Of a stretch of DNA of 64,000 nt, positions 21,970 to 60,761 are shown piece by piece (the stretch's first letter is position 1; each line of letters begins with the position of its first letter). The translations under genes were made by a program, and so were the position numbers. Source of the DNA: Verrucomicrobiaceae bacterium E54 (GTDB lineage Bacteria > Verrucomicrobiota > Verrucomicrobiia > Verrucomicrobiales > Akkermansiaceae); assembly GCA_022548915.1 (NCBI GenBank), contig JAKZES010000025.1, positions 1 to 64,000 on the forward strand, written 5' to 3'. Below the pieces are notes generated by a model. That model had not been told where the DNA came from. It made no database searches and saw nothing but the letters and a program-made list of their open reading frames with translations.

Positions 21970-23502
21970 ATGATCAGCCGACTCTATTCGGCCGCCTTGC
22001 GCGGCGTCGAGGGCCTCGAGGTGGAGGTCGAGGTCAACGTCACCGGTTCCGAGGATCCCAAGGTGATCATCGTCGGCCTGCCCGACGCGGCGGTGCGCGA
22101 GTCCGCCTCGCGGGTGATTTCCGCCTTTTCCGCGACGCCGCTCAAGGTCGGGGAGGGGGTCAAGACCGTGAACCTGGCCCCGGCCGACCTGAAGAAGGAA
22201 GGCCCGTCCTTCGACCTCCCGATCGCCCTGGCCATGGCCTCCGCCGCCGAGGGAGTGAGCCTGCCGGCCGAGGAGTTCTGCATCGTCGGCGAGCTCGCGC
22301 TCGATGGTGGCGTGCGCCCGGTCAAGGGTGTCCTTTCCATCGCGCTCGAGGCCAAGGCCCGCGGCCGCAAGCGGGTGCTGGTGCCCGCCGCCAATGCCCC
22401 CGAGGCCGCCGTGATCGACGGCATCGAGGTGATCCCCATCGCCAACCTCTACCAGGCATGGCGCTACCTCATCGGCGAGGAGGAGATCCCGCCGCTGCAG
22501 GTCGACCGCGCCCGCCTGTTCGAGGAGAACCGCCGCTACGAGGTCGACTTCGACGAGGTGAAGGGTCAGCACCACGTCAAGCGCGCCCTCGAGGTCGCCG
22601 TCGCCGGGAATCATAATCTCCTGATGGTCGGGCCGCCGGGCACCGGCAAGTCGATGCTCGCCAAGCGCCTGCCGACCATCATGCCCGACATGAGCGAGGA
22701 CGAGGCGATCGAGGTCACCCGCATCCAGTCGATCGCCGGCCTGCTCGATCCCAAGCGTGCCTTCCTGACCACCCGGCCGTTCCGTGCCCCGCATCACACC
22801 ATCTCCGATGCCGGCCTTCTCGGCGGTGGCACCAACCCCGGGCCCGGCGAGATCTCGCTCGCCCACCACGGCGTGCTTTTCCTCGACGAGTTGCCCGAGT
22901 TCCGGCGGCAGACCCTCGAGGTCATGCGTCAGCCGCTCGAGGACGGCCACGTCACCATCTCCCGCGCCGCCGGGTCACTCACCTTTCCGGCAAACTGCAT
23001 GCTGGTGGCCGCGCTCAATCCCTGTCCCTGCGGCTACTACGGAGATAGTAAAAGGGAATGCCGCTGCTCGCCGCGCAAGATCGAGCAGTACCGCCAGCGG
23101 ATCTCGGGGCCGTTGCTCGACCGCATCGACCTGCATGTCGAGGTGCCGTTGGTCGACTACCGCGAGTTGTCGGGGAAGGCCAGCGGCGAGAGCTCCGCCG
23201 CCATCCGCGAACGCATCGTCGCCGCCCGCGCGATCCAGCGCGAGCGCTTCGCCGGCACCTCGGCCCGCACCAATGCCGAAATGGGCCCGCGGCAAGTCCG
23301 CGCCTGCTGCGAACTGGACACCGAGAGTTCGACCTATCTCGAGCACGCCATGGAGCAGCTCAACTTCTCCGCCCGCGCCCACGACCGCATCCTCAAGGTC
23401 GCGCGCACCCTGGCGGACCTCGAAGGTGCGGACCGCATCGCCTCGAACCACATCCTCGAGGCCATCCAATACCGCTCGCTGGACCGGAATCTGTTTGCCT
23501 GA
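21970..23502 (+). CDS. comM: YifB/ComM family Mg-chelatase-like AAA+ ATPase
   Basis: 510 aa, full length for the family. The start at 21970 gives the typical [14 protein letters not shown] opening. The N-terminal Lon-S5-like domain is followed by the AAA+ module with Walker A (VGPPGTGKS, near residue 220), Walker B (LFLDELPEF), the [11 protein letters not shown] cysteine segment and the C-terminal Mg_chelatase_C helices. In naturally competent bacteria ComM is a hexameric helicase that promotes branch migration during transformation. Its 3' end is repeated at 24618-24756 and 60366-60761, so the 3' end seems to be a target for insertion or recombination. Here the gene itself is intact. Confidence 0.93.
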
Positions 23503-23594
23503 GGCCGATGGTGCGAATTCCAACGAGACTGAATTTCCGCAGACCGATCCCACTGGGATTTTCGGGAAGAATGATCTTCGATTCCGACTGACGC

Positions 23595-24602
23595 ATGCCC
23601 ACCCCGGATCCACCGCCCTACACCATCACTCCCGCCATCCTCTCGCTGGTGGCGGAGGTCGCGGGCGAAGTCGGGCGCCTGCACGCCCTTGCCGGCACCA
23701 TCACCACGCCGCAATTGCGACGGAAAAGCCGCATCCGCACCGTCCATGCCTCTTTGGAGATCGAGAACAACACCCTCAGTATCGATCAAGTCACCGCCGT
23801 TCTCGACGGCAAACGAGTCCTCGGGGCGCCCGCCGAGGTCCAGGAGGTCCGCAACGCCTTCGCCGCCTACGAGGCCATGCCCTCGTGGAATCCCACATCA
23901 GCGAAGGATCTTCTCGCCGCCCACAAGCTGATGCTTCACGGCCTCGCCGATGACGCCGGCAAGTTCCGCCGCGGATCCGTTGGCATTGCGCGGGGAAAGC
24001 AGGTCGTTCACCTCGCTCCGCCCGCCGGCCGGGTCCCCGGCCTCGTGAAGAACCTCCTCGCCTGGCTCAAGCGCACGGATGCCCACCCGCTCGTCGCCGG
24101 CAGCATCTTCCATTACGAAATCGAGTTCATCCACCCCTTCGCCGACGGCAATGGCCGCATGGGCCGCCTTTGGCAGTCCCTTGTCCTCAGCCGCTGGCAG
24201 TCTCTTTTCGCCTGGCTTCCGGTGGAAACCGTCATTCGCGACCGCCAGGCCGCCTACTACGAGGTTCTCGGTGCCTGCGACAAGGCAGGGAACTCCACCG
24301 CCTTCATCGAGTTCATGCTCTTCTCCCTCGCCACTGCCTTGCGGGAGGCCGGAACCGATCAAGTCAGCGATCAAGTCAACGACCAAGTCGCCGCGCTTCT
24401 ACGGGCACTCGGAGACAAGACCCTCAGCGCCGCGGAGTGCATGAAGCGACTCAAGATGTCCCATCGCCCCACCTTCCGCACCAACTACCTCCACCCGGCG
24501 ATGCACGCGGGACTGGTGGAAATGACCATCCCCGAGAAACCCAACAGCCGCTTGCAGAAATATCGCGCCACCATCGCCGGAGCCGCCGCCCTTCGGTCCT
24601 GA
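23595..24602 (+). CDS. Fic-domain AMPylase with N-terminal inhibitory helix
   Basis: 335 aa. The canonical Fic motif HPFADGNGRMGR begins at His180. The class II inhibitory motif [S/T]xxxE[G/N] is present as SLEIEN (Ser53, Glu57, Asn58), so AMPylation should be self-repressed. A winged-helix-like C-terminus follows residue 260 (AAECMKRLKMSHRPTFRTNY). Fic proteins transfer AMP to protein hydroxyls and often act as toxins or stress modulators. The gene sits alone between the true yifB 3' end (93 bases upstream) and a second yifB 3'-end copy (about 16 bases downstream), as expected for cargo of a small inserted segment. No antitoxin gene is next to it. Confidence 0.9.
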   Translation: MPTPDPPPYTITPAILSLVAEVAGEVGRLHALAGTITTPQLRRKSRIRTVHASLEIENNTLSIDQVTAVLDGKRVLGAPAEVQEVRNAFAAYEAMPSWNPTSAKDLLAAHKLMLHGLADDAGKFRRGSVGIARGKQVVHLAPPAGRVPGLVKNLLAWLKRTDAHPLVAGSIFHYEIEFIHPFADGNGRMGRLWQSLVLSRWQSLFAWLPVETVIRDRQAAYYEVLGACDKAGNSTAFIEFMLFSLATALREAGTDQVSDQVNDQVAALLRALGDKTLSAAECMKRLKMSHRPTFRTNYLHPAMHAGLVEMTIPEKPNSRLQKYRATIAGAAALRS

Positions 24603-24617
24603 ACGTCACCCATGATT

Positions 24618-24756
24618 GGTAGCGGCCCGCGCCCACGACCGCATCCTCAAGGCCGCCCGCACGCTGGCCGACCTCGAAGGTGCGGACCGCATCGCCTCGA
24701 ACCACATTCTCGAGGCCATCCAGTATCGCTCATTGGACCGGAACCTGTTTGCGTGA
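24618..24756 (+). pseudogene. yifB/comM 3'-end fragment, copy B
   Basis: Encodes the last 43 or so residues of YifB ([19 protein letters not shown] onward to RNLFA) with one amino-acid change (Val to Ala) and about ten further, silent, base changes relative to 23372-23502. It follows the Fic gene directly. It has no start codon of its own and is too short to function alone. Confidence 0.92.
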
Positions 24757-24824
24757 TTTGGGTCGCTACGAATTTGGCAGCCTTCCTCGAGCAAACGAAG
24801 GAGTCGGTAACACGCCGTTCGTGA

Positions 24825-25145
24825 TCACGCTGGAATCGGAATCGTACCGCAGTGATCGACGCCGAAGCGACCCTGGTCGCGCCCGGCGAGCAGGCCGGCT
24901 CGCGACGGGACGCACTGGGGCGCGGTGACGTAGCCGCTGGTGCAGCGCAGACCATCGGCTGCAAGCCGGTCGAGGTGGGGCGTCCGGAGGTCATCGAGTT
25001 GGCCCTGGCATGGCAGGTCCGCGTAGCCCTGGTCGTCGGTGAAGAGGACGATGATGTTGGGGCGCTTGGCGGGGGCGGCGGAGGCAAGCGCCAGCGACGC
25101 AACAAATCCGGCGAGGCCGCGGAGGAGGAGCCGAAAGGGCATCAT
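24825..25145 (-). pseudogene. N-terminal fragment of an S1-family sulfatase
   Basis: 107 codons: signal peptide (MMPFRLLLRGLAGFVASLAL), the metal-binding strand PNIIVLFTDDQGYAD, and the formylglycine motif CVPSR followed by AGLLAGRDQGRFG. A complete sulfatase needs about 450-550 aa, so everything after the active-site helix is missing; the frame ends after HCGTIPIPA. The fragment abuts the yifB copy B, suggesting both were cut by the same rearrangement. Confidence 0.85.
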
Positions 25146-25273
25146 GTCTGCGGACGAATGGGGCTGGAATACGAGGATCACTCAGATCCGACAAGTTTTT
25201 CAAGCGGCGGCCAACCTCATCGAGGAACTTGGGCTTGCCACATAGCCGCTTCCCAGCCTAAGGATTGTAGCAG

Positions 25274-26164
25274 ATGGAGTCATCGAAAGAATCAGCATCC
25301 ACCCCGGATTTTATTTCCGATCAGGTAAGCGAGAGTAGCTATTTTTTCCTTAACCTGAGTCCCTCCCCGGAAAGGAGGTTCACCGTCACTTGTGGTGGAG
25401 TCGAGCATTGCAACCCAGATTATGAAATCCACCGTGACCGGTTCGAATATTATGGCATGGAGTACATCGCAAGCGGTATTTGCAGGCTTCAGATTGAAGA
25501 TGCCACCTATGATCTGAGTGCTGGCAGCATTTTTTGCTATAGTCCGAAATCCCGCGTAAGAATCGTCAACAGCGGCAACAAGCCACTGATCAAGTTCTTC
25601 ATTGATTTCGATGGTCCGGATGTGGAACAGGTGATCGGCGATCCATTTTTGAAAACCTCCGTGCCTTACCGGATGCCGAACCTGAGGACGATGCATGTGA
25701 TTTTCGATCAGATGATCGAATTCGGCCAACAAGGGGGACGTGGATGTCAGCGCATTCTGGAGCAACAACTCCGATTGGTTTCCTTGTTGGCGCGCTTCAA
25801 GGCCGTCGATCACTCGCATTTTGGCAGCCACAGTTACGATACCTATGTGCGGTGCCTTCGGCATGTTGAGCAAAACTATGTTTCTATCAAGTCGGTGAAT
25901 CAACTCGCAGACGAATGCTGCCTGTCGGCTGGGCATCTTTCAAGATTGTTCAGCAAGTTCGCAGATGAGAGTCCATGGCAGATGATTATTCGGCTGAAGA
26001 TGAATCTGGCCGGGGAGCTTCTTCTTCGTCGTTCAGGCATGATCAAGTCGGTGGCCTCAAGAGTCGGATTCGACGATGCCTATCATTTCTCACGCCTCTT
26101 CAAGCAATACTACGGGATCGCCCCGAAGCACTTTCTTGAGAGCATGAGAAGGCCTCATTCCTGA
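25274..26164 (+). CDS. AraC-family transcriptional regulator with cupin-like sensor domain
   Basis: 296 aa. The N-terminal half has the AraC_binding cupin pattern (EYIASGICRLQI, LSAGSIFCYSP), and the C-terminal 100 residues carry two HTH motifs: SVNQLADECCLSAGHLSRLFSK and SVASRVGFDDAYHFSRLFKQYYG. It probably senses a sugar and activates nearby carbohydrate genes, first of all the LamG gene on the same strand. Its base composition is visibly more AT-rich than that of its neighbours, consistent with separate acquisition. Confidence 0.92.
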   Translation: MESSKESASTPDFISDQVSESSYFFLNLSPSPERRFTVTCGGVEHCNPDYEIHRDRFEYYGMEYIASGICRLQIEDATYDLSAGSIFCYSPKSRVRIVNSGNKPLIKFFIDFDGPDVEQVIGDPFLKTSVPYRMPNLRTMHVIFDQMIEFGQQGGRGCQRILEQQLRLVSLLARFKAVDHSHFGSHSYDTYVRCLRHVEQNYVSIKSVNQLADECCLSAGHLSRLFSKFADESPWQMIIRLKMNLAGELLLRRSGMIKSVASRVGFDDAYHFSRLFKQYYGIAPKHFLESMRRPHS

Positions 26165-26487
26165 TTTTCCCGATTCGTTGTTCGGGCGTCCCGACGAGCT
26201 TGGGATTGAGAAAAACAACCTGTTGATGGATATTCGATGCATCCTCTCGAATTCCGCTGGCGTGCGGCAGTCCATAGGTCATGCTCGACAAAGTTCAGAG
26301 GGCATTTCCGAATGAAGCCTGGTCAAGGCATCCTTACGTCGTTGCAGCGTTTCTCGGGGGGCGTGGTCGTCCGGAACTCCGCCAACAGTGCGTGCGGATC
26401 GGCCGTGCGAGGGCGCTACGCGATCCGCGTGACCGGCTGAATCAATGTCACCGACATGCACATGCAGGAACTCGCCTTCACCGATCC
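26165..26487. other. Intergenic, no gene recognised
   Basis: 323 bases between the AraC gene and the LamG gene. The frame of the LamG protein stays open from 26281, but the signal peptide places its start at 26488. I see no other gene, hairpin terminator or repeat here; it may carry the promoter controlled by the AraC protein. Confidence 0.5.
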
Positions 26488-29298
26488 ATGAAACCTATTC
26501 CATCCAGGCCTGCACTGAGCCTTGTGCTGATGTCCTTGCTTCTATCGAGTGCGTTCGGTGGCGCTGCGGAAAAGGATTTGCCGCCGCATGCTCATGAGCA
26601 TGTGGCTGGAACGGCTTATGTCGGGGCACCGCAGCCGGAGGTCAATCCGTGGGCGAGCCGGGGGATCCCCTCCCGTTATGACTTTGCGGCCTACTACACC
26701 CGCAAGCACTACGAGGGGGAGAAATGGCACGAGATCTCCCGGACCGGGGAGTACACGGATGTCGTGGTCCGTCTTGGTGAATCGCCCCGCGAAGTGGTCT
26801 TCGGGCGCGTGTCGAGCTATCATCCGGAGGTTTTGGTTGACGGAGAAGTGGTGGCGGCCTTTCCGGAGCGAACGGAGCGCCGGGGTGACGGGCCCGGGCG
26901 GCGGCCCGACAAGGTGAACCGCTATGCCCGCGCGAGATTGATCGAGACGAATGACAACCGGGTGGTGATCCATTACCGCTACATGCCGCAGATGCCGGCT
27001 GCCGAGCAGATGCGCCGATTGAATCCACCGGACCAGACTGGTTTCATTGATGAGTATTTTGTGTTCTATCCGGATGGATCCGGCGTTCGGGCCTTGCGAC
27101 CGGGGAGTCCCCGGATGGAAGCATGGTATGATGCGGACCGTCTCCAAGTTTTCCGATTTCAGATCAGTGCGGAAGGTGCGGTCGAGGAGGAGCTCGCATT
27201 TGCGGATGACCGCCGGATGATGCTGGATGTTCTGGGTTTCCGCATCGCGCCCCACCGCGCCAGCGCTCCTGCCCCTTTGCTGGAGCGGAGCCGGACAATC
27301 CCGCAGCCCATGCTCGAATGGAACTTTGACGAAGGAGCGGGCCGAACGACCAGGGAAGCGGTTTCGGGTCGGGTGAGTCAGGTTGAGGGACATGCCGCTC
27401 TCTGGAGGCGGGGCGTTTCCGGCAACGCCCTGCTCTTTGACGGCTACACGAATCGCATCCAGCATTCTCCCAGTCGATCGATCCAGAGCGAGCAGCTCAC
27501 TCTATCCGCCTGGGTCTGCATCGCGGCTTACCCATGGAATGATTGCTCCATCATTCAGCAGGGGGATGTCCTTGCGGACGGGGATGGCATTTCACTGGGT
27601 ATTGATCCCCATGGCCGCCCGCTCCTGGCGCTGAGCACGACCGACGGGCGCGTTACCGTGCGGAAGGAGGATGCGGCGTTCCGTATTCCCCGTTACCAGT
27701 GGACACTGCTGACGGGAATCATTGACCGGAAAGAAGGAATCGCCCGGCTTTACCTGAATGGGCTCGCGGTGGACGAGCGCTCCCTCAGGGGGAGGCGGAT
27801 CCGCTGGGCGGCCGGGCAACCGGTGAAGATCGGCGAGGGGCCCCCTCTCGAGGCGGCATGGCCTGTGGGTCGGGTGCACGGACCCTATCCCTACGGCTTT
27901 GAAGGCTTGATCGATGAGGTGTGCGTCCATGGGCAAGCGATTGCCCCCGATCCTGAGCTGCCGGCAAGGCTTCAAAAGGAGATGCCCGATATGGAAAGGC
28001 GGATCCTGCCGGCCGGCGAGGAGAGTTGGAAGAACTTCGGGGCGCGCTATACGCGGCTTGGATATCACGAGGCGTGGGACAGCATGTTTCGCATGTCCGG
28101 CCATCCCGATGTGGTCGTGACCTTTGACAAGGTTCCCGGTCGCTATGTCTTCTGGCATGGCGCGAACTACATCCCGATGATGGTGAATGAAAAAGGGCAC
28201 TGGTATTCCAACCAGTTCAATGAAACCTGGTGGAACGGCGGTTTCGAGCCGATGGGGGACAAGCGCATGGTCTATGGCCGCGTCCATATCGTGGAGCAAA
28301 GCCCGGCCCGGGTGGTGATTCGCTGGCGCTATCCGCTGAGCGGAGTGGATTACCGGATCTTCGCGGAGGGTTGGGCCGACGACAGCGGCTGGGGCGAATG
28401 GTGTGATTGGTATTTCACGATCTACCCGGACGGAAGCTGCGTGAAGCGGATGCGGTCCTGGAAGAGCCGCACTCACGGTAGGGAATGGCACGAGTCGATG
28501 GTCATCCTTGGTCCGGACCAACACCCGGAATCGGTGATCGAGTCGCGTCCCACGCTTACGCTGGGCACTCTCGACGGAACGATCCGCCGGTACAATTGGA
28601 TTGAGGAGCCTCCCACCGATGTGAACTACGAGGACGTTAGCCTGCATATCGTCAACCTTCAGGCGGAGTATGACCCCTATACGATTTGCGGACCCGTCAA
28701 CCGGGGCAATGTTTACACGAAGCGAGGGGACAACCCCTACGGCGTTTTTCCTGCCTGGAACCACTGGCCGGTTGGCCAGTTTCCGTCACCTGGTCGCTAT
28801 GTCCGCTATCCGGATCGAAGTGCCCACTGCTCGATGACGCACCTTTACTGGGACCCCAGTGTTGCCTTTGAGGAGGAGGGCCGATTTGAGGAAAAGCTGA
28901 TGCTGGAAGGTCTGAGCAATGCGTCGCCGGAGCGGCTCGTTGAAATCGCACGATCCTACCTCAAGCCACCCGCTGCAGTGGTTGAAGGCGGTCAAGTGTC
29001 GGTCGAATGGGATGAAAAAACCCGGGCCTATCAGGTTACACGGGAATCGGGCGAGGTCCGGGAAATGGAGCTACGTCTGGAAGCCAGCGAGGCACATCCT
29101 TCCGTCAATCCGGTTTTTGTGGTCGAGAACTGGGGCGAGGATCATGAGGCCAATCTGCTGATCAATGGCAAGTTGCCCCCCAATGATGTCGATATCCGAC
29201 AAGGCGTGGTGCGTCGCCCGAATGGAGTCACCGCACTCGTCATCTGGATGGAGATGGCCTGTCGTGAGCCGACAGATTTCCAGATCCTTAATAATTAA
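26488..29298 (+). CDS. Secreted LamG protein with two homologous flanking domains
   Basis: 936 aa, signal peptide MKPIPSRPALSLVLMSLLLS. A LamG/concanavalin-like domain (about residues 275-490, LEWNFDEGAG to GFEGLIDEVCVHG) lies between two beta-rich regions that look related: the first has YHPEVLVDG, RVVIHYRYMPQ and EYFVFYPDGSGVRALR, the second has YIPMMVNEKG, RVVIRWRYPLSG and DWYFTIYPDGSCVKRMR. I do not recognise a named catalytic family. The duplication, conserved aromatic and charged residues and the setting suggest an undescribed polysaccharide-binding or -cleaving protein. The stop is three bases from the convergent beta-helix gene. Confidence 0.75.
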   Translation: MKPIPSRPALSLVLMSLLLSSAFGGAAEKDLPPHAHEHVAGTAYVGAPQPEVNPWASRGIPSRYDFAAYYTRKHYEGEKWHEISRTGEYTDVVVRLGESPREVVFGRVSSYHPEVLVDGEVVAAFPERTERRGDGPGRRPDKVNRYARARLIETNDNRVVIHYRYMPQMPAAEQMRRLNPPDQTGFIDEYFVFYPDGSGVRALRPGSPRMEAWYDADRLQVFRFQISAEGAVEEELAFADDRRMMLDVLGFRIAPHRASAPAPLLERSRTIPQPMLEWNFDEGAGRTTREAVSGRVSQVEGHAALWRRGVSGNALLFDGYTNRIQHSPSRSIQSEQLTLSAWVCIAAYPWNDCSIIQQGDVLADGDGISLGIDPHGRPLLALSTTDGRVTVRKEDAAFRIPRYQWTLLTGIIDRKEGIARLYLNGLAVDERSLRGRRIRWAAGQPVKIGEGPPLEAAWPVGRVHGPYPYGFEGLIDEVCVHGQAIAPDPELPARLQKEMPDMERRILPAGEESWKNFGARYTRLGYHEAWDSMFRMSGHPDVVVTFDKVPGRYVFWHGANYIPMMVNEKGHWYSNQFNETWWNGGFEPMGDKRMVYGRVHIVEQSPARVVIRWRYPLSGVDYRIFAEGWADDSGWGEWCDWYFTIYPDGSCVKRMRSWKSRTHGREWHESMVILGPDQHPESVIESRPTLTLGTLDGTIRRYNWIEEPPTDVNYEDVSLHIVNLQAEYDPYTICGPVNRGNVYTKRGDNPYGVFPAWNHWPVGQFPSPGRYVRYPDRSAHCSMTHLYWDPSVAFEEEGRFEEKLMLEGLSNASPERLVEIARSYLKPPAAVVEGGQVSVEWDEKTRAYQVTRESGEVREMELRLEASEAHPSVNPVFVVENWGEDHEANLLINGKLPPNDVDIRQGVVRRPNGVTALVIWMEMACREPTDFQILNN

Positions 29299-29301
29299 TA
29301 G

Positions 29302-34304: not shown

Positions 34305-34351
34305 GTGCGGGTCGGAAAGGATGGAGGACGCTGGTGACAGCGCGGGATGGG

Positions 34352-47923: not shown

Positions 47924-47927
47924 AAAC

Positions 47928-48197: not shown

Positions 48198-49838
48198 TCA
48201 ACGTTCCCAGTTATTTTCGATCACCTCGCGGATGCCCTCTTGATCGGCATCGGTATCTCCGAGGTCCTTTCTCAACCGCTTCAACTCCGCCTTCAGTCGC
48301 GCCACCACGCCGGCATATTCCGGATCGTCGTAGCGGTTGTGCATCTCGTGCGGGTCTCCCACGAGATCGTAGAGTTCCCAACCCGCCGGAGTGTCCTTCC
48401 AGAACCGGTTCCCGTCCTTCCCCTCGACCGGCTTCCCGGCATGGATGCCGGTGTAGTCCTTGCCGTAGTAGAAGATGAGCTTGTGGCGCTTGGTCCGAAT
48501 CCCGAAGTGGGCCGGATTGTTGTGACCGTGCGCCATGTGCATCCAGTAGCGGTAATAAATCGCCTGTCGCCAGTCGGCCGGCGCCTCGTCGCCGTCCAGC
48601 GCCTTCAAGAAGCTCCGGCCCTGCATGTCTTCGGGCACCTTCGCTCCGGCGGCTTCGAGAAGGGTCGGTGCGAAGTCCACGTTGTTGAGGAGCCAGTCGC
48701 AGCGGCTGCCCGGCTTCATCCCCGGCGCGCGGATGATCAGCGGCAGCCGGATCGACTCTTCGAGCATCCAGCGTTTGTCGATGTAGTCATGCTCGCCCAG
48801 CATCATCCCCTGGTCGCTCGTGTAGAGGATGACCGTGTTGTCCATCAGGCTCTCGCGCTCGAGATAATCGAGAAGCCGCTGGAGGTTGTCGTCGATCCCT
48901 TTGACGCATCGCAGGTATTCCTTCAGATAGAGCTGGTAGGTCCAGCTCGTGAGCTCGCGATCCGTCAGGTCATCGCGGCCCGTCAGCGTCCGGATCTTCT
49001 GGCGATAGTAGCGGGCCAGATTGCGCTTCGTCTTCTGCGGCGAGACGGTCGAGCCGATCACCCCGACCAGCGAGTCGTTGTCGCCGCGGGTCGCGACCGA
49101 ACCGAAGTCCGGGCCCGGCTGGTCGTGAAGGTTCGGAGGCTCGGGGATGGTCGCGTCCTCGAGGTATCCCTCGTAGCGCGGGGCGTACACGAACATGTCG
49201 TGGGGCGCCTTGAAGTGATGCATGAGGAAGAACGGCCGGTGCGGATCCCGCCGGTCCAGCCAGTCGAGACTCATGTCCGTGAGCACGTCGGACGAATGCC
49301 CCTTGGTCTCGATCACTTCGATCTCCCGGGTCATGGTGCTGTCGAAACGGACGCGCCGTTTCCGTCCGCCCTCGCTGACGTGCAGGAGCGGGTTCATGTA
49401 GGTGCCCTGGCCGGCAATCACCGCGAAATAGTCGAAGAACTCCGGAGAATCCTTGAGATGCCACTTGCCGATGACCGCGGTCTGGTAGCCGGCCTCGCTC
49501 ATCCGCTTCGAGAGCTCATGGCGGCGGCCGGGCAGGCGGTCGTAGAGGTCGCGCACGCCGTTGACGTGGGAATACTGCCCGGTCATCACGCTCGCCCGGC
49601 TCGGAGTGCAGATCGAGTTCGAACAGAACACGTTTTCGAAGACCATTCCTTCCCCCGCCAGCTTGTCGAGGGCGGGAGTCGGGTTCAGCGGGGCAAGCCG
49701 CGAACCGTAACATCCCATGGCTTGATAGCTGTGGTCATCCGACATGATGAACAAGATGTTCGGCCGGGCGGGAACGGCAGCTGCCGGGGAGGCCAGCAGC
49801 ATGACGCAAAGGGTCTGGATGATGGTGGATCTTCTCAT
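48198..49838 (-). CDS. S1-family sulfatase
   Basis: 546 aa. Signal peptide RRSTIIQTLCVMLLASPAAA. The alkaline-phosphatase fold shows NILFIMSDDHSYQAMG (metal-binding Asp34/Asp35), the formylglycine motif CTPSR (Cys77) needing maturation by a sulfatase-modifying enzyme, GKWHLKD, and ILYTSDQGMMLGEH. It should remove sulfate esters from a sulfated polysaccharide in the periplasm. No maturase gene is in the window. It is flanked on both sides by repeats (47865-47923 and 50003-50061), so it may have moved as a unit between them. Confidence 0.93.
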   Translation of the reverse strand: MRRSTIIQTLCVMLLASPAAAVPARPNILFIMSDDHSYQAMGCYGSRLAPLNPTPALDKLAGEGMVFENVFCSNSICTPSRASVMTGQYSHVNGVRDLYDRLPGRRHELSKRMSEAGYQTAVIGKWHLKDSPEFFDYFAVIAGQGTYMNPLLHVSEGGRKRRVRFDSTMTREIEVIETKGHSSDVLTDMSLDWLDRRDPHRPFFLMHHFKAPHDMFVYAPRYEGYLEDATIPEPPNLHDQPGPDFGSVATRGDNDSLVGVIGSTVSPQKTKRNLARYYRQKIRTLTGRDDLTDRELTSWTYQLYLKEYLRCVKGIDDNLQRLLDYLERESLMDNTVILYTSDQGMMLGEHDYIDKRWMLEESIRLPLIIRAPGMKPGSRCDWLLNNVDFAPTLLEAAGAKVPEDMQGRSFLKALDGDEAPADWRQAIYYRYWMHMAHGHNNPAHFGIRTKRHKLIFYYGKDYTGIHAGKPVEGKDGNRFWKDTPAGWELYDLVGDPHEMHNRYDDPEYAGVVARLKAELKRLRKDLGDTDADQEGIREVIENNWER

Positions 49839-50195
49839 GGTTCCGGGGTCGGACCGCTCCCCTCGGGCGGAAGAACCGCCGGATTGAACGGGTTCCGAAG
49901 AAGCGATGTCTTGGATGGCGAAGCAAGGCCGGCATCATCGCCGGCACTCCAATGGGCGAGGAAATGGTCGGCTTGGCATGGATCGTTCAGGAATTGCTAG
50001 GCAATCGCTTTTTCAGGGGCCGGCTGATGGAGCCCCGGCTGCCGGGGTTGGAGGGGGTTGAGCCCGGCGCCGGCGAAGCCCTGACGCGATCCCAGGCCAG
50101 TGCGTCGTCATTGAGCCTTTGACGGGGCCTTTGAATAACGGGTTCTTATTGTAGGATTGTATTTGTTTGGTTTTGGTGAATGATTTTCGACCGTA
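49839..50195. other. Intergenic with REP-like palindrome, no gene
   Basis: 357 bases between the sulfatase and GH95 genes. A GCCGGC-ATCATC-GCCGGC hairpin lies near 49934-49951 and the 59-bp repeat at 50003-50061. No coding sequence is recognised. Confidence 0.6.
50003..50061. repeat. 59-bp repeat with GC-rich palindrome, copy 2
   Basis: Partner of 47865-47923, differing at one central base (CCCCGGC-T-GCCGGGG). The two copies are in the same orientation, 2.1 kb apart, and bracket the sulfatase gene. Confidence 0.92.
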
Positions 50196-52535: not shown

Positions 52536-53749
52536 GTTTTCAATCCCTTCAGGTCGACTTCCAGTTTCTTGTTTTCTTGTAGCAGTTGTTCCATGGTCAA
52601 GTCGATACCCCGTTCGGCGGCCTCGCGACCGAGGATGCAGGTCAGGCAACCGTCGATGGCGCGAGGCACGGTCTCGTTGCTGAAAATTCCCTCAGTGATC
52701 TGACGGTGGAAGGTCGCTATGTTGCGGTTGGCACCATCCCGGTAGAGATTGGTGACTTTGCCGCCCTTGAACCTCAACTCACCCGGACCGTGAAGAAAAG
52801 ACTCGTTGCCGTAATTGATTTGGCAGTGTGCTTTCGCACTCTGTACGATGACTTTGATGTCTCCCCTGACGAGGTTTTTCAGACCCTGGCCAAAGTGATT
52901 GTGGACTGCCCCACTGGCGTAGCGATAGACCACCGAGCAGACGTCATGCGAGTCGCCATTAGGATTCGGACGTGCAACCTGAGAGGCACCACAGGCCGAG
53001 ACCGGACGTTCACCGATCGCCCAGAGCGCGGCATCGATCGCGTGAATGTCGAAATTGCCGATGTAATCGCAGCCCAAGGCAATGTCATTGGTCCAGATCA
53101 GATCCTGCAGGCGGCTTTCGAGGTTGGGGCCGCGCGGTGGGTCGTTGAAGCCGGCGCAGATTCCGTATGACTGCAAATGAACGATGGGACCGAAGGCAGG
53201 GTCTTTAATTCGGCGGACTACTTCGATGTTTATCGGATCCGTCGGTATTTGGTAGTCGATCAAAAAGACTTTCTTTTGGCGGGACGCCTGCTGGGCACTC
53301 GCTTCGATGGAGAGGCAACCAGGGACATCCACGGCGACCGGCTTGGCCATGTAAACATGCAAGCCGGCGTTCACGGCCTCGGCGGCCTGCTCCGGGAAGA
53401 AGTAGGGCGGCACTTCCAGGACGATGGCGTCCACTCCGCTTTCGATGACCTTCCGGTATCCGGAAAGACCCGAAAAGCAGCGTGTATGATCGACGCTCAA
53501 CTCAGATCCCGCCTTATCGGCAACCGCTTGAAAGTAGTCCGTCACGGCATGGAACTGGTAGCCGCCATGCGCCTGGAATAACCGGGCAATCCATAACCCA
53601 CGTCCCCCACAACCGACGAGGCCGATCTTGATCTTCCGATGGGCTTTTGTCATGTTCTGCGTGTTTCCCACCAGTGGTAGCATGGCGGACGCGCCAGCCG
53701 CACCCTTGATGAACCTTCTTCTGGAGATATCCAGTTTATATGGTTTCAT
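52532..53749 (-). CDS. Gfo/Idh/MocA-family oxidoreductase with Tat signal
   Basis: 405 aa. A twin-arginine signal (SRRRFIKGAAGASAMLPLVG) sends it folded across the membrane. The Rossmann motif GLVGCGGRGLWIA is near residue 43. The usual EKP motif is AKP here (HVYMAKPVAVD), keeping the lysine. Such proteins oxidise, or in some cases cleave, sugars with tightly bound NAD(P). Its place between DUF6288 and GH95, with one base to the former and ATGA overlap with the latter, implies a joint role in glycan processing; the substrate is not evident. Confidence 0.9.
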   Translation of the reverse strand: MKPYKLDISRRRFIKGAAGASAMLPLVGNTQNMTKAHRKIKIGLVGCGGRGLWIARLFQAHGGYQFHAVTDYFQAVADKAGSELSVDHTRCFSGLSGYRKVIESGVDAIVLEVPPYFFPEQAAEAVNAGLHVYMAKPVAVDVPGCLSIEASAQQASRQKKVFLIDYQIPTDPINIEVVRRIKDPAFGPIVHLQSYGICAGFNDPPRGPNLESRLQDLIWTNDIALGCDYIGNFDIHAIDAALWAIGERPVSACGASQVARPNPNGDSHDVCSVVYRYASGAVHNHFGQGLKNLVRGDIKVIVQSAKAHCQINYGNESFLHGPGELRFKGGKVTNLYRDGANRNIATFHRQITEGIFSNETVPRAIDGCLTCILGREAAERGIDLTMEQLLQENKKLEVDLKGLKT

Positions 53750-53750
53750 A

Positions 53751-56243
53751 TTATCTTGTTGAGCGTGTATTTTTGAAGTGTTTCACGGCTTCCTGCATGG
53801 CGGCGCGGACCGCCGGTTGCTGATTGTTCCTGCCTTCCTTGAGATTCCAGCTGTGTAGCCTAAGGCAGCGCTCGAATTGTTTGATGATCGGTCCGGCATC
53901 CTCTCCGAGGTCCTCGGCGATCTTGACGAGTCCCGGTTGCCACCGGCTTCCGGTGATCAGCCAGTTGGCGTGCATGTTGTCACTTGGTTTCCAGTCTTCG
54001 AGATACTCGGCGAGTTGAGAAGCGATTACTTTGTAGGGTGGGTTTTTGATGTCGCTCAGAATCATCATCGTCCGGTGGGCGGCTTCCTGGCGCGCCGCGA
54101 AGGGATCGTAGCCCGCTTCAAACAGGGTGTCCTGCAGTTCGGAGGCAATGGCCTTGACGAAGGTGGCGACGGCCTGCTCATCAAGTTCCACCCGCTCTCT
54201 TTGGAACAAGTGCTTGATTCCCTCATTCATGGCGCTCCGCTCGAACACGGAACGTGAGCGGTTGTAGCGCTCTGCCAGTGCCAGTAGCTCCGGACTGCGG
54301 ATATCCTTACCCAGTCCGACCAGCGCCCAGTAGGAACTCTCACGCAGGATCCACTGCTCGTGCTCGCCATAGTGATCAATCAGGTTGCGGTTGCGGCGAA
54401 TGTCCTCCGCCTGCGCGAAGCGCAGTGCATTGAAGACCCCGTCGATCTCCCACCAGGCTGCCTGTGGATCATTCAGCATCGCCTCCAGATGTGGGACGAA
54501 ACGCTGCGAAACGATGTCCCGGGAAATGAAAGAGGTGTTACTGCGTCGCCAATTGTCGTACTGTGAGATGGCATCGCATCCAGCCCGACGGACGCGTGGG
54601 TCTTGATGTGCCAGAGCCTTTCCAATGGCCTCGTAGGCAGCCTCGGTATTCATCTCGCCCAGCTTCCTGGCGGCGCGGGTGCGGATGTAAGGGTTGAAGT
54701 GGTGCATCAGACGGAATAAAATCGTTTCCGGGACGGGTTCACGGGATTCAACCAGCGCCTGGATTTTGTGAGCGTTCACCGTGTCCTGGCCGAAGCCGTC
54801 CGCGTGGGTGCTCAGCAGGAAAGTGGCATCGCGCGGCGTGCCCCAGGGCTGGCTTGGAAGCGGTTGGCCCGGCTTGCTGTATTGGGTGCGCGGGGCACCG
54901 GTCATGCGCAGGGTCCTCAAGGGGGCGGTGTAAGTCAGGCCGAGTCCGCGGCCCCAGCCTTCGGAAGCGTAGCGCGTTTGAGCCGGAGGGGAGGGCAGGA
55001 GGCTAAAGCCGCCATCCGGGAGCCGGCAAAGGTCATAATACCAGGCCAGTTGACGCATGTGGTTCCTGCGATGTTTTTCGCCCATGAGGGTGTCGGGCAG
55101 ATGAGGCAGCGAGACACCGCGCCAGAGGACGTTGAACCCTCCGCCGGTGTGGCCCGCTTCGAAACTCGCATACGAGTCGGCGACCATCATGGCCAGATGC
55201 TTGGCCGCCGCCTGATAAACTTCGCCATCGAGGAGGCTCATCGCGCAGGCGATGGCGGCATTGCGTCCATTGGTGTCGGGGAAGATTTCCGCGCGATGGT
55301 CCCCATAGGGAATACTGCCGTGACCGATACCACGGTAGAAGAAGACCAGCGAGCGCTGCCAGGCCTCCTCGTGGACCGTGATGCCGCACTCGCGTGCCAG
55401 CGTCATGCCCAGGAACAGAGTGACGCCGGCCGAATTCATCAAGCCGCTCTGAACGTAGCCCACGCTTGTGCCGGGAGCTGATAATCCATGTTCCCAAGCG
55501 CCGGCCACTTGACCCTCGGCAGCGACTTTGCAGGCGGCTTCCATGGCGGGGAGCACCGAGGCATCGCCGGTCTTTAGATAATATTCACTCAGGAAGATGA
55601 GATGGTAGCCCAGATGCCATGTGCTGCCAGAGGGCTTGTTCTCGACACTTTTCGAGAGCGCTTTTGCATAGTGCCGAATGGGATCCTCATCCTTGGGGTT
55701 ATCCGTCGAAAGGAGGAAGAGGGCACCCATGACATGCCAGAGCTCGGCACCGTCAATCCACCCATCCGCCGTTTGCAGACCGGCGAGGTATTCGGCATGC
55801 GCCCGAATGATGCTTTCCGACTTGGCGCAATTCAGAGGCCAGCCTGGTGCGTAGTCACCCTTGACAGGGACCTTGACAACAGCCTCAAGGTGCCGGCTTG
55901 CCCGCCGGATTGAAAGGGTCAGGCTCCCGCTTTCTGCCTCGGCCCGGCTCAGGGCCGTGCCGAGCGGCACGCGTGGATCCGGTCCTTCGATGGCGATTCC
56001 GTTTGCGGCCAGAATCAAGTCGTCGGCCTTGAGTTGTCCGGCTGCGGGCGTGCCTGGATCGATCCGGTCGACGGTCATTTTTTGCCCCGGCTCGATCCGG
56101 ATCCAGGCTCCGGTCACGCCAGCCTGGAATGCCGGATAGGTCGATTTCTCGCCAACACTGCCTGAGCCGGCCGATGCTTCGCGCGGTGCCACCACCACGA
56201 ACAGGCTCAGAAGCGGGAGAATGAAAAAGCTGCAATGCTTCAT
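53751..56243 (-). CDS. PDZ-DUF6288 secreted protein (830 aa)
   Basis: Signal peptide MKHCSFFILPLLSLFVVVAP. PDZ domain at about 30-130 (AAGQLKADDLILAANG), a DUF6288-type helical core with WHLGYHLIFLSEYYLKTGD, GYVQSGLMNSAG, IPYGDH and GHTGGGFNVLW, then HEAT-like repeats. It matches the 367-2775 protein in order and motifs. Its presence in a second glycoside-hydrolase operon supports a glycan-related job. The start at 56243 was chosen for the signal peptide; the frame extends to 56303. Confidence 0.8.
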   Translation of the reverse strand: MKHCSFFILPLLSLFVVVAPREASAGSGSVGEKSTYPAFQAGVTGAWIRIEPGQKMTVDRIDPGTPAAGQLKADDLILAANGIAIEGPDPRVPLGTALSRAEAESGSLTLSIRRASRHLEAVVKVPVKGDYAPGWPLNCAKSESIIRAHAEYLAGLQTADGWIDGAELWHVMGALFLLSTDNPKDEDPIRHYAKALSKSVENKPSGSTWHLGYHLIFLSEYYLKTGDASVLPAMEAACKVAAEGQVAGAWEHGLSAPGTSVGYVQSGLMNSAGVTLFLGMTLARECGITVHEEAWQRSLVFFYRGIGHGSIPYGDHRAEIFPDTNGRNAAIACAMSLLDGEVYQAAAKHLAMMVADSYASFEAGHTGGGFNVLWRGVSLPHLPDTLMGEKHRRNHMRQLAWYYDLCRLPDGGFSLLPSPPAQTRYASEGWGRGLGLTYTAPLRTLRMTGAPRTQYSKPGQPLPSQPWGTPRDATFLLSTHADGFGQDTVNAHKIQALVESREPVPETILFRLMHHFNPYIRTRAARKLGEMNTEAAYEAIGKALAHQDPRVRRAGCDAISQYDNWRRSNTSFISRDIVSQRFVPHLEAMLNDPQAAWWEIDGVFNALRFAQAEDIRRNRNLIDHYGEHEQWILRESSYWALVGLGKDIRSPELLALAERYNRSRSVFERSAMNEGIKHLFQRERVELDEQAVATFVKAIASELQDTLFEAGYDPFAARQEAAHRTMMILSDIKNPPYKVIASQLAEYLEDWKPSDNMHANWLITGSRWQPGLVKIAEDLGEDAGPIIKQFERCLRLHSWNLKEGRNNQQPAVRAAMQEAVKHFKNTRSTR

Positions 56244-56322
56244 GATGTTTGTTTGTCTGGCAGTCTGCGACTGGTCCGGTCTCGGTTTGTTCTGTTTGGC
56301 CACGGCCGTGGTGGGAGAGCTG

Positions 56323-57432
56323 CTACTCGATGGCCGAGATCGCTTCTGCGAAGGCGACGCCCTTCAGGAAGTAGGTCTTTCCCGAGCCAAGGTAATGGTA
56401 GGGGCGATCGTTGCCGACGGTCATCCACTTTGCCATGCCTTCGGGACCTTTTTTCCAAAGGCCCTCTTCGAAGTATTGCAGGGCGACCTTGTCCTGAAAC
56501 TGAGCGGTCGGCACAAAGACGACCGTATTCCTGAAATCCGGGAGTTTTGCGATGTTGGCCTGAGCTTCCTGAAATGGACCGCGTCCCTCAACACCGTCGG
56601 TTCCCAGTTCGCCGATCACCACCGGCAAATTCGGTGCATTCAGATCCTTGCGAACGTCCTTGATCAGTGCGGCCGTCCATTTGGTGTAATCGGAGTAACC
56701 CGTCTCATTGTCCTTGTAGTAGGCGGCGACCTTGTCGTTGAAGCCCTGGTGCCAGACGAAGCCGGCCAGCTCCGGAGTGGTGCCCTTCAGCTCGGGAAAC
56801 TTGTTTTCATAGTCGGCGAGTTCCTCTTTAACGTGTTGTATCATCTTCCGGTAATACTCCCCGTAGGATGCCTTTAGTTCGTCGAAGCCCGGCACGGGCT
56901 TCGGCTTGCGGGTCTTCTTGCCTTCCGCTTCCTGACGGCGGTTCGCCTCGATCGCGGCATCGTATTTTTGCTGCAGTTCCACTATGATTTGCCGGATCTC
57001 TGCGTCCGTGGGTTGGGCGCTTGGCGGGCGGAAGGGTTGGTAAACACTCTTGCCGCCCCAAGCCGTCTTGATGATCAGCACGGGTTCCTCGTAGAATTCA
57101 CCCACGGCATGGCCGAATCCGAATTCGGGCCCAATGGAATTCCCCCCCTTGGTCCCGTAATCGACCGTGAGGGGACTATGCTTCGGTCCGCCGTGCTTGG
57201 TTGGGTAGGTGATGAACACATCCTCGCGCACCGCCCAGTCATCGCCGTCCTTGATAATGTCATACCAGGGTTTGATGAGTGGGTCGTCCTTGTAGGTGTC
57301 GAGGTGGGTGGGCAGACCCTTGCCTTCCATGTTGGACTGTCCCGCGAGGATGAACACCTTCAGGGGCTTCGCAGTGGTGGCCGTCGGGATGGCCAGTGCG
57401 CACAATAGGGTGAAAAGGCGGAGTGTTGTCAC
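56323..57432 (-). CDS. Secreted SGNH sialate-O-acetylesterase-like protein
   Basis: 369 aa from the GTG at 57432, chosen because it opens a signal peptide (TTLRLFTLLCALAIPTATTA). There is no in-frame ATG near. The SGNH blocks are VFILAGQSNMEGKG (nucleophile Ser), IGPEFGFGHAVGEF, FVWHQGFNDK and PYHYLGSGKTYFLKG. No accessory domains, unlike the three long SGNH proteins in this window. It should remove acetyl groups before GH95 cleavage. The operon neighbours are GH95 upstream (55 bases) and DUF6288 downstream (79 bases). Confidence 0.85.
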   Translation of the reverse strand: MTTLRLFTLLCALAIPTATTAKPLKVFILAGQSNMEGKGLPTHLDTYKDDPLIKPWYDIIKDGDDWAVREDVFITYPTKHGGPKHSPLTVDYGTKGGNSIGPEFGFGHAVGEFYEEPVLIIKTAWGGKSVYQPFRPPSAQPTDAEIRQIIVELQQKYDAAIEANRRQEAEGKKTRKPKPVPGFDELKASYGEYYRKMIQHVKEELADYENKFPELKGTTPELAGFVWHQGFNDKVAAYYKDNETGYSDYTKWTAALIKDVRKDLNAPNLPVVIGELGTDGVEGRGPFQEAQANIAKLPDFRNTVVFVPTAQFQDKVALQYFEEGLWKKGPEGMAKWMTVGNDRPYHYLGSGKTYFLKGVAFAEAISAIE

Positions 57433-57487
57433 GATTCTGATGAGTTGGGATTGAAGAGTGGATGGGTAGCCAAGAAGGCAGTGGATC

Positions 57488-59959
57488 CTAGTAGCGGCAG
57501 TAAAGTTCCAATGATTCACCTGCGGGGAGATCGATCTTCCACAAGCCGCGCCCGACGGTGGTGACCGCATCTTTTCGGGCGGGATCGACGGCATCGACGA
57601 AGCGCAGGTGGTGGCCGAAGCGCAGCGAGATCTCCTGAGCTTCCTCGGAGTGGAGGGTGACCTTGACCCAGCCCATGAGCGTGTTCCAATTGAGTTCCTC
57701 CACGGTGATTCCCCCGCGCGCCAGACAACCGCGGATCCGCCCTTTCGGGAAGACATCTTGAGGCAAGGCGGCCAGAAGTTCGATTTCACCCGGGTCGGAC
57801 TGGACGAGCATTTCCATCAAGAGTCCGGGGAGGGAGAAGGTTGCATCAAGGTTGTAGATCTTCGGGCCGGGATTATGCCCTGTCATAAGGCTTGAGTTCA
57901 GGTAGCGGTTCCTGGCGAAGTAGTTGAGGATCTGCTTCACCAATTCAGCATCCCGCAGTCGTGCAGCGACCAGGGCGGCGTGCATTTGCCCGTGGGCGGA
58001 TTTGTTGCCAAGTCCGGCCTCGATTCGCTTCTGCATGGCGATCCGGGCGGCCTCGAAGAGCTCGGGCTTGCGTTGCGGCGAGACTTCCCGTCCCGGGTAA
58101 ACGGGGTAGAGGTGGGATAAATGGCGGTGATGATAACGGTCACCCAGGCCGGGGTAGGACCATTCGGCGATGGCACCGTCGCTGTTGATGCCGTAGTCGG
58201 GCAGCCTGGCCAGGAGCGCCTCCCAACGTTTGATGTTCTCCGATTCGATGTCGAGTTTCCGGCAGGCGGCGATCAGAGTTGTCAATACCTCGCGACAGAT
58301 CGCGATTTCGCTGGTCGCATTCGGAACGACATTGGTGGTCTGTTCGACAGGCTCCATGACCGGAACGTTCTCCGGTGAGATGGACGGGTAGAAGACGTGC
58401 CGATCGTTCAACTCCGGATGCATCGGAAGAAAGCTGGCATAGAATTCAGCGGCGTCCTTGAGCATGGGGATGGCATGCTCGCGGAGGAACTTCTCATCAC
58501 CCGTGTAAACGGCGTAATCGTAAAGATAGCTGGCCAGCCAGCCGACCCCTCCGGTCCAGGCGAACGCCGGCATGAGGACCGCTCCGTGCCGCCATCCCTG
58601 GCAGAGATCGGTGACGGCACCCTCGGCTCCGTAGAGCCGACGGGCGTTGTCGCGCCAATCCTGCCGGTATCGCTGAAGGAAAGAGGCGTAGGTGTGCATG
58701 ACCTCGGGAAGGTTCCCCTGAGCCACGCCCGCCATCGCCAGATTGAGGTTCGCATCGAAGGTGTAGCGGCCATCCCACGGCGGGGTCCATTCGTTGCCCC
58801 ACAGGCCCATCAGGCTGGGCGCCAACTCGCCGGTGGCTCCACAAGTCAGCGCATAGCGGCCGACGGCATGGAGCGCTTCGAAAAGCTCGGGCAAGGATTC
58901 CCCCCGCAGGCCGGCGGCGATCAGTTGCTCGCTCGACACGGTGGAGGTGGTGGGACCCCCGAGATCCAACGTGACACGCCGGAACATCTCGCCGTGTGCC
59001 GCCGCGTGGGGTGCCAGTAACTCGTCGTAGCTAGCCGGCAAGCTTGCGAGTTGTTTGCGCAAGGCGGCGCGATCCGCTTTGCCCGCGTCATCGAGATATT
59101 CGAGGCGCATGATGATCAGCACCCGTTCGGCCGTCTTGACATCGAGTCGCTGGTCGGCAACGCCGCTGGCCGAGCCGCCGAAGGTCAGGACCCTTGCGAG
59201 AGCATGATAGCCCTCCGGCTGGGGCTTGCCCATACGACGACCGTAGGTGGCGTGATAATAGACTTCAGACCCGGTGTGGTCGATGTCGATCCCCGCGATG
59301 TCGCCGTCGAGCTTGCCCGGCGCCTCGACCAGCCGAATCGAGGCATCGAATTCCTCCCCGGCGGGAGCGAGCAATTCGATGACGATGACATCATCCGTGC
59401 GTGAGACGAAGGCCCGGCGGAACCAGGCACCCTTGTTGTCCTGCCAGGTGACCGAGATTTCTCCGGTCTCCAGGTTGGTCTCACGCCGGTATTCGAGTGG
59501 CGTTCCATTATTCTCCGTGATGATCTCGAGATGAAACGCCGGATGCGTCCGGTCGTAGGCCGGGCGACGACCGGTGAACTGATCGCCGTACATCGCCTGG
59601 TTCTTGCGCACGGCTTCTTCGGCAACCAGTAGATCCGCATCCAGATAGCGGCCTTCAAGCGCGATCTCCCGAGCCTCCTTCCAGGCTTCCCCCAGGTCCG
59701 GTGTCTCTGGACGGTAGTCGTTGCCGACGGTCCAGAGCTTCTCATGGTTGACGATGATGCGTTCCTGGACCGGGAGTCCCAGCACCATGATGCCGGTCGT
59801 TCCGTTCCCGCTGAGCATCGCGTCCTCCCATCGCAAGGGAGGTGTGGTGGCGGCGACCTTGGTGGTAAGAGTCGGTGCCTCGAAGTGGTCTGCTGAGTGG
59901 ACGGCCGAGGAGATCGACAAGAGAGCGATGAAAATCGGAAGAAGAGCTTTAGATGTCAT
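57488..59959 (-). CDS. GH95-family glycoside hydrolase, divergent member
   Basis: 823 aa. Signal peptide TSKALLPIFIALLSISSAVHS. The N-terminal domain has PPLRWEDAMLSGNGTTGIMVLG, and the barrel has the Asn-x-Asn pair in DANLNLAMAG, a Glu in YPSISPENVP and an Asp in YNLDATFSLPGLL at the positions of the GH95 site. It is only distantly related to the 50196 protein, so the two may cleave different linkages. The frame extends to 59992, but the signal peptide favours the ATG at 59959. First gene of the five-gene operon. Confidence 0.85.
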   Translation of the reverse strand: MTSKALLPIFIALLSISSAVHSADHFEAPTLTTKVAATTPPLRWEDAMLSGNGTTGIMVLGLPVQERIIVNHEKLWTVGNDYRPETPDLGEAWKEAREIALEGRYLDADLLVAEEAVRKNQAMYGDQFTGRRPAYDRTHPAFHLEIITENNGTPLEYRRETNLETGEISVTWQDNKGAWFRRAFVSRTDDVIVIELLAPAGEEFDASIRLVEAPGKLDGDIAGIDIDHTGSEVYYHATYGRRMGKPQPEGYHALARVLTFGGSASGVADQRLDVKTAERVLIIMRLEYLDDAGKADRAALRKQLASLPASYDELLAPHAAAHGEMFRRVTLDLGGPTTSTVSSEQLIAAGLRGESLPELFEALHAVGRYALTCGATGELAPSLMGLWGNEWTPPWDGRYTFDANLNLAMAGVAQGNLPEVMHTYASFLQRYRQDWRDNARRLYGAEGAVTDLCQGWRHGAVLMPAFAWTGGVGWLASYLYDYAVYTGDEKFLREHAIPMLKDAAEFYASFLPMHPELNDRHVFYPSISPENVPVMEPVEQTTNVVPNATSEIAICREVLTTLIAACRKLDIESENIKRWEALLARLPDYGINSDGAIAEWSYPGLGDRYHHRHLSHLYPVYPGREVSPQRKPELFEAARIAMQKRIEAGLGNKSAHGQMHAALVAARLRDAELVKQILNYFARNRYLNSSLMTGHNPGPKIYNLDATFSLPGLLMEMLVQSDPGEIELLAALPQDVFPKGRIRGCLARGGITVEELNWNTLMGWVKVTLHSEEAQEISLRFGHHLRFVDAVDPARKDAVTTVGRGLWKIDLPAGESLELYCRY

Positions 59960-60110
59960 GAATGGCACTGTCTTACCATCGGTTTGACCCATAAGTTTTA
60001 CCAGAAAACATTTGGTTTTTCACGTGGCGTATTGAGCAATACTTGACCGTCGGCGGGTTCGGATATGAGTAGTCGGTGAAAGTCCGTCGTGCTGTGTTCC
60101 GGAGGATTGG

Positions 60111-60202
60111 CACCCTTCAGGGTGGTTGGATTCGTCATGTTCCAATTCTATGTGCTCGTGGCCAGGGATTCGGCTTAGGGCATCGCCCTATCCCGCCGAA
60201 TC
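60111..60202. repeat. Two adjacent REP-like palindromes in the 59960-60365 intergenic region
   Basis: A CACCCT-TC-AGGGTG hairpin (60111-60124) is followed by a nested one: arms GATTCGGC (60167-60174) and GCCGAATC (60195-60202) around TAGGGC-ATC-GCCCTA (60176-60190). The remaining intergenic bases hold the operon promoter region and no recognisable gene; a 16-codon reading frame at 60259-60309 is too short to interpret. Confidence 0.7.
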
Positions 60203-60365
60203 GCACGATGAGTCTTTCAAGTCTCGCGATTTCATGAAATCGAAAAAGCCGACATCTTGATGGAGATTTACGACATAGTCACCAGGTTCGAAAAAGAACT
60301 GCAGGCATAGGCAAGGAGGTTTTGATCGTCATCGGTGACGTCTCTGTCGTTGAGGATGAGGGGTT

Positions 60366-60761
60366 TGGCCCTTGCTCGAACGCATCGACCTGCATGTCGA
60401 GGTGCCGCTGGTGGAATACCGCGAGCTTTCGGGGAAGGCCAGCGGCGAGAGCTCCGCCGCCATCCGCGAACGCATCGTCGCAGCCCGCGCGATCCAGCGT
60501 GAGCGCTTCGCCGGCACCTCGGCCCGCACCAATGCCAAAATGGGCCCGCGGCAAGTCCGCGCCTGCTGCGAGTTGGACACCGAGAGTTCGACCTATCTCG
60601 AGCACGCCATGGAGCAGCCCAACTTCTCAGCCCGCGCCCACGACCGCATCCTCAAGGTCGCCCGGACGCTGGCCGACCTCGAAGGTGCGGACCGCATCGC
60701 CTCGAACCACATTCTCGAGGCGATCCAGTATCGCTCATTGGACCGCAATCTCTTTGCGTAG
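60366..60761 (+). pseudogene. yifB/comM 3'-end fragment, copy C
   Basis: Encodes the last 130 or so residues of YifB without any frame break, with changes such as DYRELSGK to EYRELSGK, TNAEMG to TNAKMG and EQLNFS to EQPNFS, and many silent changes. The AAA+ core is missing. A TTG at 60372 could open it, but no function is expected. In its last 130 bases it matches copy B slightly better than the intact gene. Confidence 0.93.

Follow-up and report, generated by a model that had tools for sequence, protein, structure and literature searches.

Displaced comM 3' Ends beside an Intact comM Gene May Record Layered Arrivals of Foreign DNA in a Verrucomicrobiaceae Bacterium

A 64,000-nucleotide stretch of the genome of Verrucomicrobiaceae bacterium E54 (contig JAKZES010000025.1, positions 1 to 64,000; hereafter the window) carries an intact comM (yifB) gene that is followed by two displaced copies of its own 3' end, the first behind a Fic gene and the second behind a 35.6-kb segment with glycan-utilisation genes. 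Comparison with related genomes supports the arrival of foreign DNA at comM, and we tentatively read the window, as a possible rather than a probable account, as the layered remains of at least two such arrivals through stacking recombination. The copies diverge from comM as alleles do, the comM locus is an insertion hotspot in the order Verrucomicrobiales, islands encoding a large serine recombinase (LSR) split the gene in relatives, and the right ends of such islands lie beside a whole comM in some of them.

Results and Discussion

The intact comM gene, located at 21970..23502 on the + strand as an open reading frame (ORF), encodes a 510-aa protein with ChlI, Mg_chelatase and Mg_chelatase_C domains as assigned by Pfam. 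Self-BLAST of the window with subsequent edge refinement placed copy 2, which runs from codon 467 to the stop codon, at 24625..24756 and copy 3, from codon 380 to the stop codon, at 60367..60761, both on the + strand as well. A preliminary description made from the sequence alone had reported that the comM 3' end recurs twice on the same strand and in frame, which we confirm with these sharper edges: copy 2 retains the frame of comM and copy 3 is open over 131 codons with no stop. On the + strand, 23108-23498 aligns with 60367-60757 (93.4 % over 391 bp, E 2e-168), 24625-24754 with 60630-60759 (95.4 % over 130 bp) and 23371-23502 with 24625-24756 (91.7 % over 132 bp, E 6e-48), leaving the Fic gene between direct comM repeats of 132 bp and the glycan locus between repeats of 130–391 bp. 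The two copies share no common 5' edge (codon 467 versus codon 380), and the sequences of all three diverge directly 3' of the stop codon. An extension of copy 3 back to codon 360 by tblastn crosses three TGA codons and was taken as spurious. In the genome of the window (G000; 5.9 Mb in 255 contigs) the DNA search returned the three comM places plus one 42-bp match (E 5e-5), and the protein search found, beyond these places, two weak matches to comM domains elsewhere; neither revealed a further strong copy of the 3' end. In line with the preliminary description, the copies go along with accessory DNA and are not scattered genome-wide.

The differences between the copies and comM are mostly silent. 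Copy 3 shows 22 silent and 5 replacement changes in 130 codons, corresponding to a ratio of replacement to silent substitution rates (dN/dS) of 0.066, and copy 2 shows 11 silent and 2 replacement changes in 44 codons (dN/dS 0.051). Values of 0.03–0.165 were obtained for all 17 remnant–comM pairs measured across the genomes, with the frame picked by best score and stop codons skipped. Most of the divergence therefore built up while the protein was still selected to function, as between working alleles. In a codon tree, from which copy 2 is absent for being too short, copy 3 is sister to the comM of the window, and a remnant or fragment in each of G220, G210 and G253 is nearer to another species or genus than to the comM of its own genome. 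The G253 fragment (C396, L206) is inverted, spans codons 258-509, groups with another genus and lies on the same contig as the 5' half. In the window and in nine aligned relatives, homology of the copies ends no more than a few bases away from the stop codon, even where the copies are 97–99 % alike (G040, G052).

A protein search found comM in 261 of the 288 genomes of the order, 54 of which gave at least two matches, compared with 12 of 278 for the yardstick gene pyrG, which was searched by hidden Markov model; contig breaks add double matches in both counts. Re-searching 49 genomes, chosen from those with at least two matches or a weak best comM match, revealed ten in which comM is split with both halves on one contig and strand, 28–209 kb apart (G008 208.6 kb, G132 79.7 kb, G062 71.8 kb, G066 71.7 kb, G011 64.9 kb, G110 64.5 kb, G174 49.3 kb, G045 39.5 kb, G177 38.1 kb and G184 27.8 kb; G132 is a single contig). 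An LSR is encoded within nine of these ten inserts, directly at the comM junction in G045, G174, G184 and G177, and none was seen in the G062 insert, in which no search for PF00239 (Resolvase domain) was made. Across 20 genomes, 7 of 23 Recombinase-domain matches fall into comM inserts that sum to roughly 0.4 % of their DNA. These observations support the comM locus as a hotspot of large insertions in the order. The preliminary description had proposed to look for a recombinase shared among relatives; the LSRs found at comM there split the gene at codons ~217, ~319 and ~348 and do not rebuild it.

The break lies at codon ~348 in eight of the split genomes, at codon 217 in G184 and at codon 319 in G177. 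The codons around the NPCPCG motif (codon ~348), which form the entry stretch of the LSR islands in relatives, were located by pattern match and from the junctions of the relatives at 23014..23040 (+ strand) and are unbroken in the window. Where BLAST aligned them, the codon-348 LSRs share 22–79 % protein identity, and those of G184 and G177 share 33 %. Ten LSRs were scanned for domains, that of G011 itself not being among them, which returned Resolvase in all ten, Recombinase in eight and a zinc ribbon above the cut-off in four and below it in two. The G008 LSR matched one plasmid record (23 %) and nine phage records, with at most 25.3 % identity among the eight matches listed. In G010 comM is split over two contigs, with an LSR on a third contig that carries one arm. 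A small resolvase accompanies the LSR in G011 (L100 13369-14151), G008 (C2:636646), G132, G110 and G010 (C18).

Consistent with LSR attP sites, whose arms are symmetric about a central dinucleotide and whose attL and attR overlap by 2–3 bp, the island ends in G008, G010 and G011 are inverted arms equidistant from the CC of a comM proline codon, and symmetric arms are discernible by eye in G132, G110 and G062 too. The G008 insert contains two full arm-CC-arm junctions and thereby consists of three elements in tandem, every one of which has at least one serine recombinase. In LSR sites, attB is described to have its outer motif 5 bp closer to the centre than attP does (PMC3783163). Inspected by eye, the distance of the outer motif AGCATGAA is 35 nt in the island arms and 30 nt in the left comM arm of G011, a spacing on the left in keeping with that 5-bp shift; no clear outer motif was seen by eye in the right comM arm of G011. 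In G132 (L182; C1, L181, ~4080767-4080838) a second remnant of codons 332-355 stands just after the comM 3' half and codons 481-510 follow further on, as if a second comM copy had once been there.

Several relatives combine a whole comM with an old part of it. In G002 a whole comM is followed by a WYL gene, which resembles the last gene of the G011 island, by an arm like the right end of that island (score 33.2 against a shuffled maximum of 18.8) and by a decayed comM 3' half. Sequence resembling the right end of the G045 island precedes the remnants of G157, G210 and G129; in G157 it includes an HTH gene, and in G129 this island end is fused to a remnant starting at codon 372. One remnant each in G220 and G042 (C103) follows an end of the G211 type, and G096 presents the mirror case with a comM 5' half before a whole comM. 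From these layouts it follows that comM can be whole while its old half stays behind. When 20 remnant edges were scored against known island right ends, five matched clearly (G157, G210, G129, G220 and G042 C103), two lay slightly above the shuffled maximum (G042 C60 and the second of G289) and G002 just below it. A likeness seen by eye at the G272 edge and the first G174 edge was not upheld by this scoring. The 5' edges of the remnants range over codons 217 to 482, with those near the comM end at ~456–482. A common core, GAYCGNATH, at the remnant starts was dropped, as the starts spread over many codons and several remnants are internally deleted. The largest number of remnants was seen in G042 (L092, L093, L107, L108), whose single whole comM and several 3' remnants are spread over at least five contigs.

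From this we infer a layered history for the window. DNA of a related strain, bearing the comM 3' end and the donor's downstream DNA, would enter by homologous recombination inside comM, and its other side would join further along the resident comM without long homology, in an illegitimate event. The outcome would be a whole comM with resident front and donor tail, the donor's downstream DNA gained and the old tail left behind it. Under such a scheme copy 3 and the right flank would be oldest, copy 2 with the glycan locus would have come next, and the present comM tail with the Fic gene would be the newest layer. In relatives the cycle may start with an LSR island that splits comM and selects for its rebuilding; an LSR step in the past of the window would likewise be conceivable. 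In competent bacteria, such one-sided recombination has been described (PMC3240628).

A number of points weigh against the layered history. The joining step was not observed, as holds for integration by an integrase. Twelve of the 20 scored remnant edges lie within the null, the two of the window among them, which score 18 and 21 against shuffled maxima of 22 and 23 and match no island end, and no LSR arm was detected in the window, where no position scored above 17 and the shuffled control reached 18.8. At the 27 sites that differ between comM and copy 3, outgroups side with comM at 19, with copy 3 at 7 and tie at 1, and copy 3 therefore appears to be the more changed sequence. In G220 it is the remnant that groups with another genus, while the whole comM has a native look; a native tail left behind would show the reverse. 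Furthermore, recombination over comM that could rescue the gene in Acinetobacter is given as no more frequent than chance (PMC11472951).

Alternatively, islands that carried their own integrase and a comM 3' end may have integrated site-specifically and regenerated comM, with the integrase since lost or acting in trans. We consider this unlikely, even though an intact comM followed by displaced 3' ends, with homology ending at the stop codon, is the layout it predicts and four remnants start at codons 380–382 (copy 3 of G000, G052, G237 and G042). Its best support is G017, where a 384-aa tyrosine recombinase stands beside a comM 3' half starting at codon ~348, with the whole comM on another contig; several RHS-like fragments (YGYRYYDPVTGRW) lie around this recombinase (C109, L057/L106). 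In a search of 25 genomes a tyrosine recombinase was close to a displaced comM end in G017 only, and in the 19 genomes with remnants considered none was near them bar that of G265, ~3 kb away. AbaR and Tn7-like islands carry tni genes and create a 5-bp target duplication. Pfam returned no recombinase or transposase family in the 20 window ORFs scanned (17 of them within 23.5–60.8 kb), a subset of all ORFs in which tni genes were not searched; within this scope the earlier statement that no integrase or transposase is visible stands. Copies 2 and 3 start at different codons and thus offer no one shared crossover point, and the remnant starts near the comM end are scattered. The initial interpretation consequently survives in part: comM is a recurrent place of large insertions and the copies go with accessory DNA, but a single site-specific integration with a regenerated 3' end is not supported, given the unequal starts, a window in which neither a recombinase nor a known arm was seen, and LSRs that in relatives split the gene and do not rebuild it.

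Copies 2 and 3 may also be eroded right halves of a comM once split by LSR islands (at codon ~348, 217 or 319), with island and arm deleted and comM rebuilt, which we regard as rather improbable. The LSR splits and the island-end remnants of relatives speak for it, and the G129 fusion at codon 372 exemplifies such erosion. However, no arm or island gene adjoins the copies in the window, and its genome encodes one Resolvase-domain protein, on another contig. It is very improbable that the comM 3' end was simply duplicated inside the genome and then decayed. The copies are most like the genome's own comM, but all 17 pairs measured diverged under purifying selection, on which ground simple duplication was rejected, and accessory genes lie between the copies. 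Equally remote is an assembly artefact that joined strain variants of the comM region in this fragmented genome, for which the likeness of the copies to strain alleles could be cited, as similar layouts are seen in genomes that consist of one contig, with remnants in G235 and G264 and a split comM in G132.

The DNA beside and between the copies bears on what was captured. The Fic gene (23595..24602, + strand; Fic and Fic-like_C domains) finds its best PADLOC match in SoFic (E 2.2e-41) and is thus a predicted SoFic-like phage-defence gene. Its protein had no match in the relative loci compared, and Fic matches occur in 31 of 117 family genomes, the window's own included. Of 11 other Fic loci fetched with 1.5-kb flanks, two of them with short downstream flanks, none contains comM; a 107-bp flanking repeat was found at one, only a 24-bp repeat at another and none at nine. 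The closest relative (71 %) lies behind cvfB in G297 between 107-bp repeats of the cvfB end (L298 1198-1304 and 2551-2657), so the tail-repeat layout is not peculiar to comM, though one of the 11 Fic relatives checked displays it. A single gene directly behind comM and directly before a remnant is found in the window (Fic) and in G220, G235 and G242 (each Bro-N), the G242 gene being one that we take to be DinD-like. PADLOC assigned PDC-S13 to the Bro-N genes of G220 and G242, the two relatives scanned. The position immediately after comM may be one where single defence genes settle, as with the SoFic-like gene of the window and the PDC-S13 matches of these two.

Between copies 2 and 3 (24757..60366), Pfam identified two GH95 proteins, three SASA esterases, a sulfatase, an FAD oxidoreductase, a sodium symporter and an AraC protein. 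This glycan locus contains internal repeats (39663-40445 versus 43466-44248, 86.6 % over 783 bp; 38888-39230 versus 39194-39536, 74.9 % over 346 bp), and its sulfatase gene is bracketed by two short repeats in swapped order at 47701-47923 and 49993-50348 (154 bp at 83.8 % and 69 bp at 95.7 %). When the window insert was compared with loci of relatives, the matches listed outside its own contig were all to comM copy 2. The right flank, whose first gene encodes an AraC-type regulator (60776..61627, − strand; Pfam), matched one G017 gene and a 0.5-kb stretch of G237. The gene in common with G017, the nearest relative, lies at 67554-68219 of the window contig (72.6 % DNA identity), 6.8 kb past copy 3, and in G017 8.2 kb past the displaced comM 3' half.

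The magnesium chelatase (ComM) gene is already known from the literature as a target of LSRs (Durrant 2022, PMC10083194; sr1WO of phage WO, PMC9203015), and 12.4 % of predicted site-specific integrases are stated to target it (PMC10083194). As in the relatives studied here, those islands split the gene, and sr1WO likewise has XRE regulators at its 3' end (PMC9203015). In contrast to these accounts, as far as they go, comM is whole in the window and has leftover tails behind it, with no LSR seen there, and the relatives exhibit three separate sites of insertion, elements in tandem and remnants next to a gene that was rebuilt. The ssrA islands of Dehalococcoides (PMC3146451) resemble the present case in being lined up in tandem behind a single target gene whose 3' end is repeated at their boundaries, and in encoding a large and a small serine recombinase (DsiA/DsiB), like the LSR and small resolvase of our relatives; they differ in their 20-bp tmRNA-gene repeats, where the repeats of the window are coding, measure 132–391 bp and stem from different alleles, and where no integration module was seen. 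Long direct target repeats also flank the genes in insertion with long target duplication in Helicobacter pylori (Nobusato 2000, as described in PMC1643837 and PMC4978471), genes that are often selfish or defence-like, and the cvfB repeats around the Fic relative of G297 resemble this layout as well; there in H. pylori restriction-modification genes are involved, whereas the window has a Fic gene and a 35.6-kb glycan locus between repeats that are diverged alleles. In Acinetobacter, comM is broken by accessory DNA including AbaR, some of it with defence systems, and recovery of comM by recombination is discussed (PMC11472951); those islands are largely Tn7-like, in contrast to the LSR islands in our relatives and the uninterrupted comM with tails in the window. 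As far as the literature searched goes, layered allele tails beside a whole comM and comM splitting at several sites across one order are new.

Conclusion

ComM aids cells in exchanging diverged DNA, and it has been argued that losing it protects mobile elements from being cured (PMC11472951). A wider and more doubtful extension of the layered history is that comM of the Verrucomicrobiales works as a break-and-rebuild ratchet, in which LSRs would split the gene, incoming alleles would rebuild it, and old tails and donor DNA would be left behind. The splits would recur at several conserved codons of this competence helicase, and the captured DNA would often be a single defence gene, such as one for a SoFic or a Bro-N (PDC-S13) protein. 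With displaced allele tails next to a rebuilt comM, a single genome would be enough to put invasions and repairs in order, and the repair of comM by incoming DNA would become a testable question. If the ratchet is true, the successive tails can be read as a record of how the locus was invaded, rescued and supplied with defence genes.

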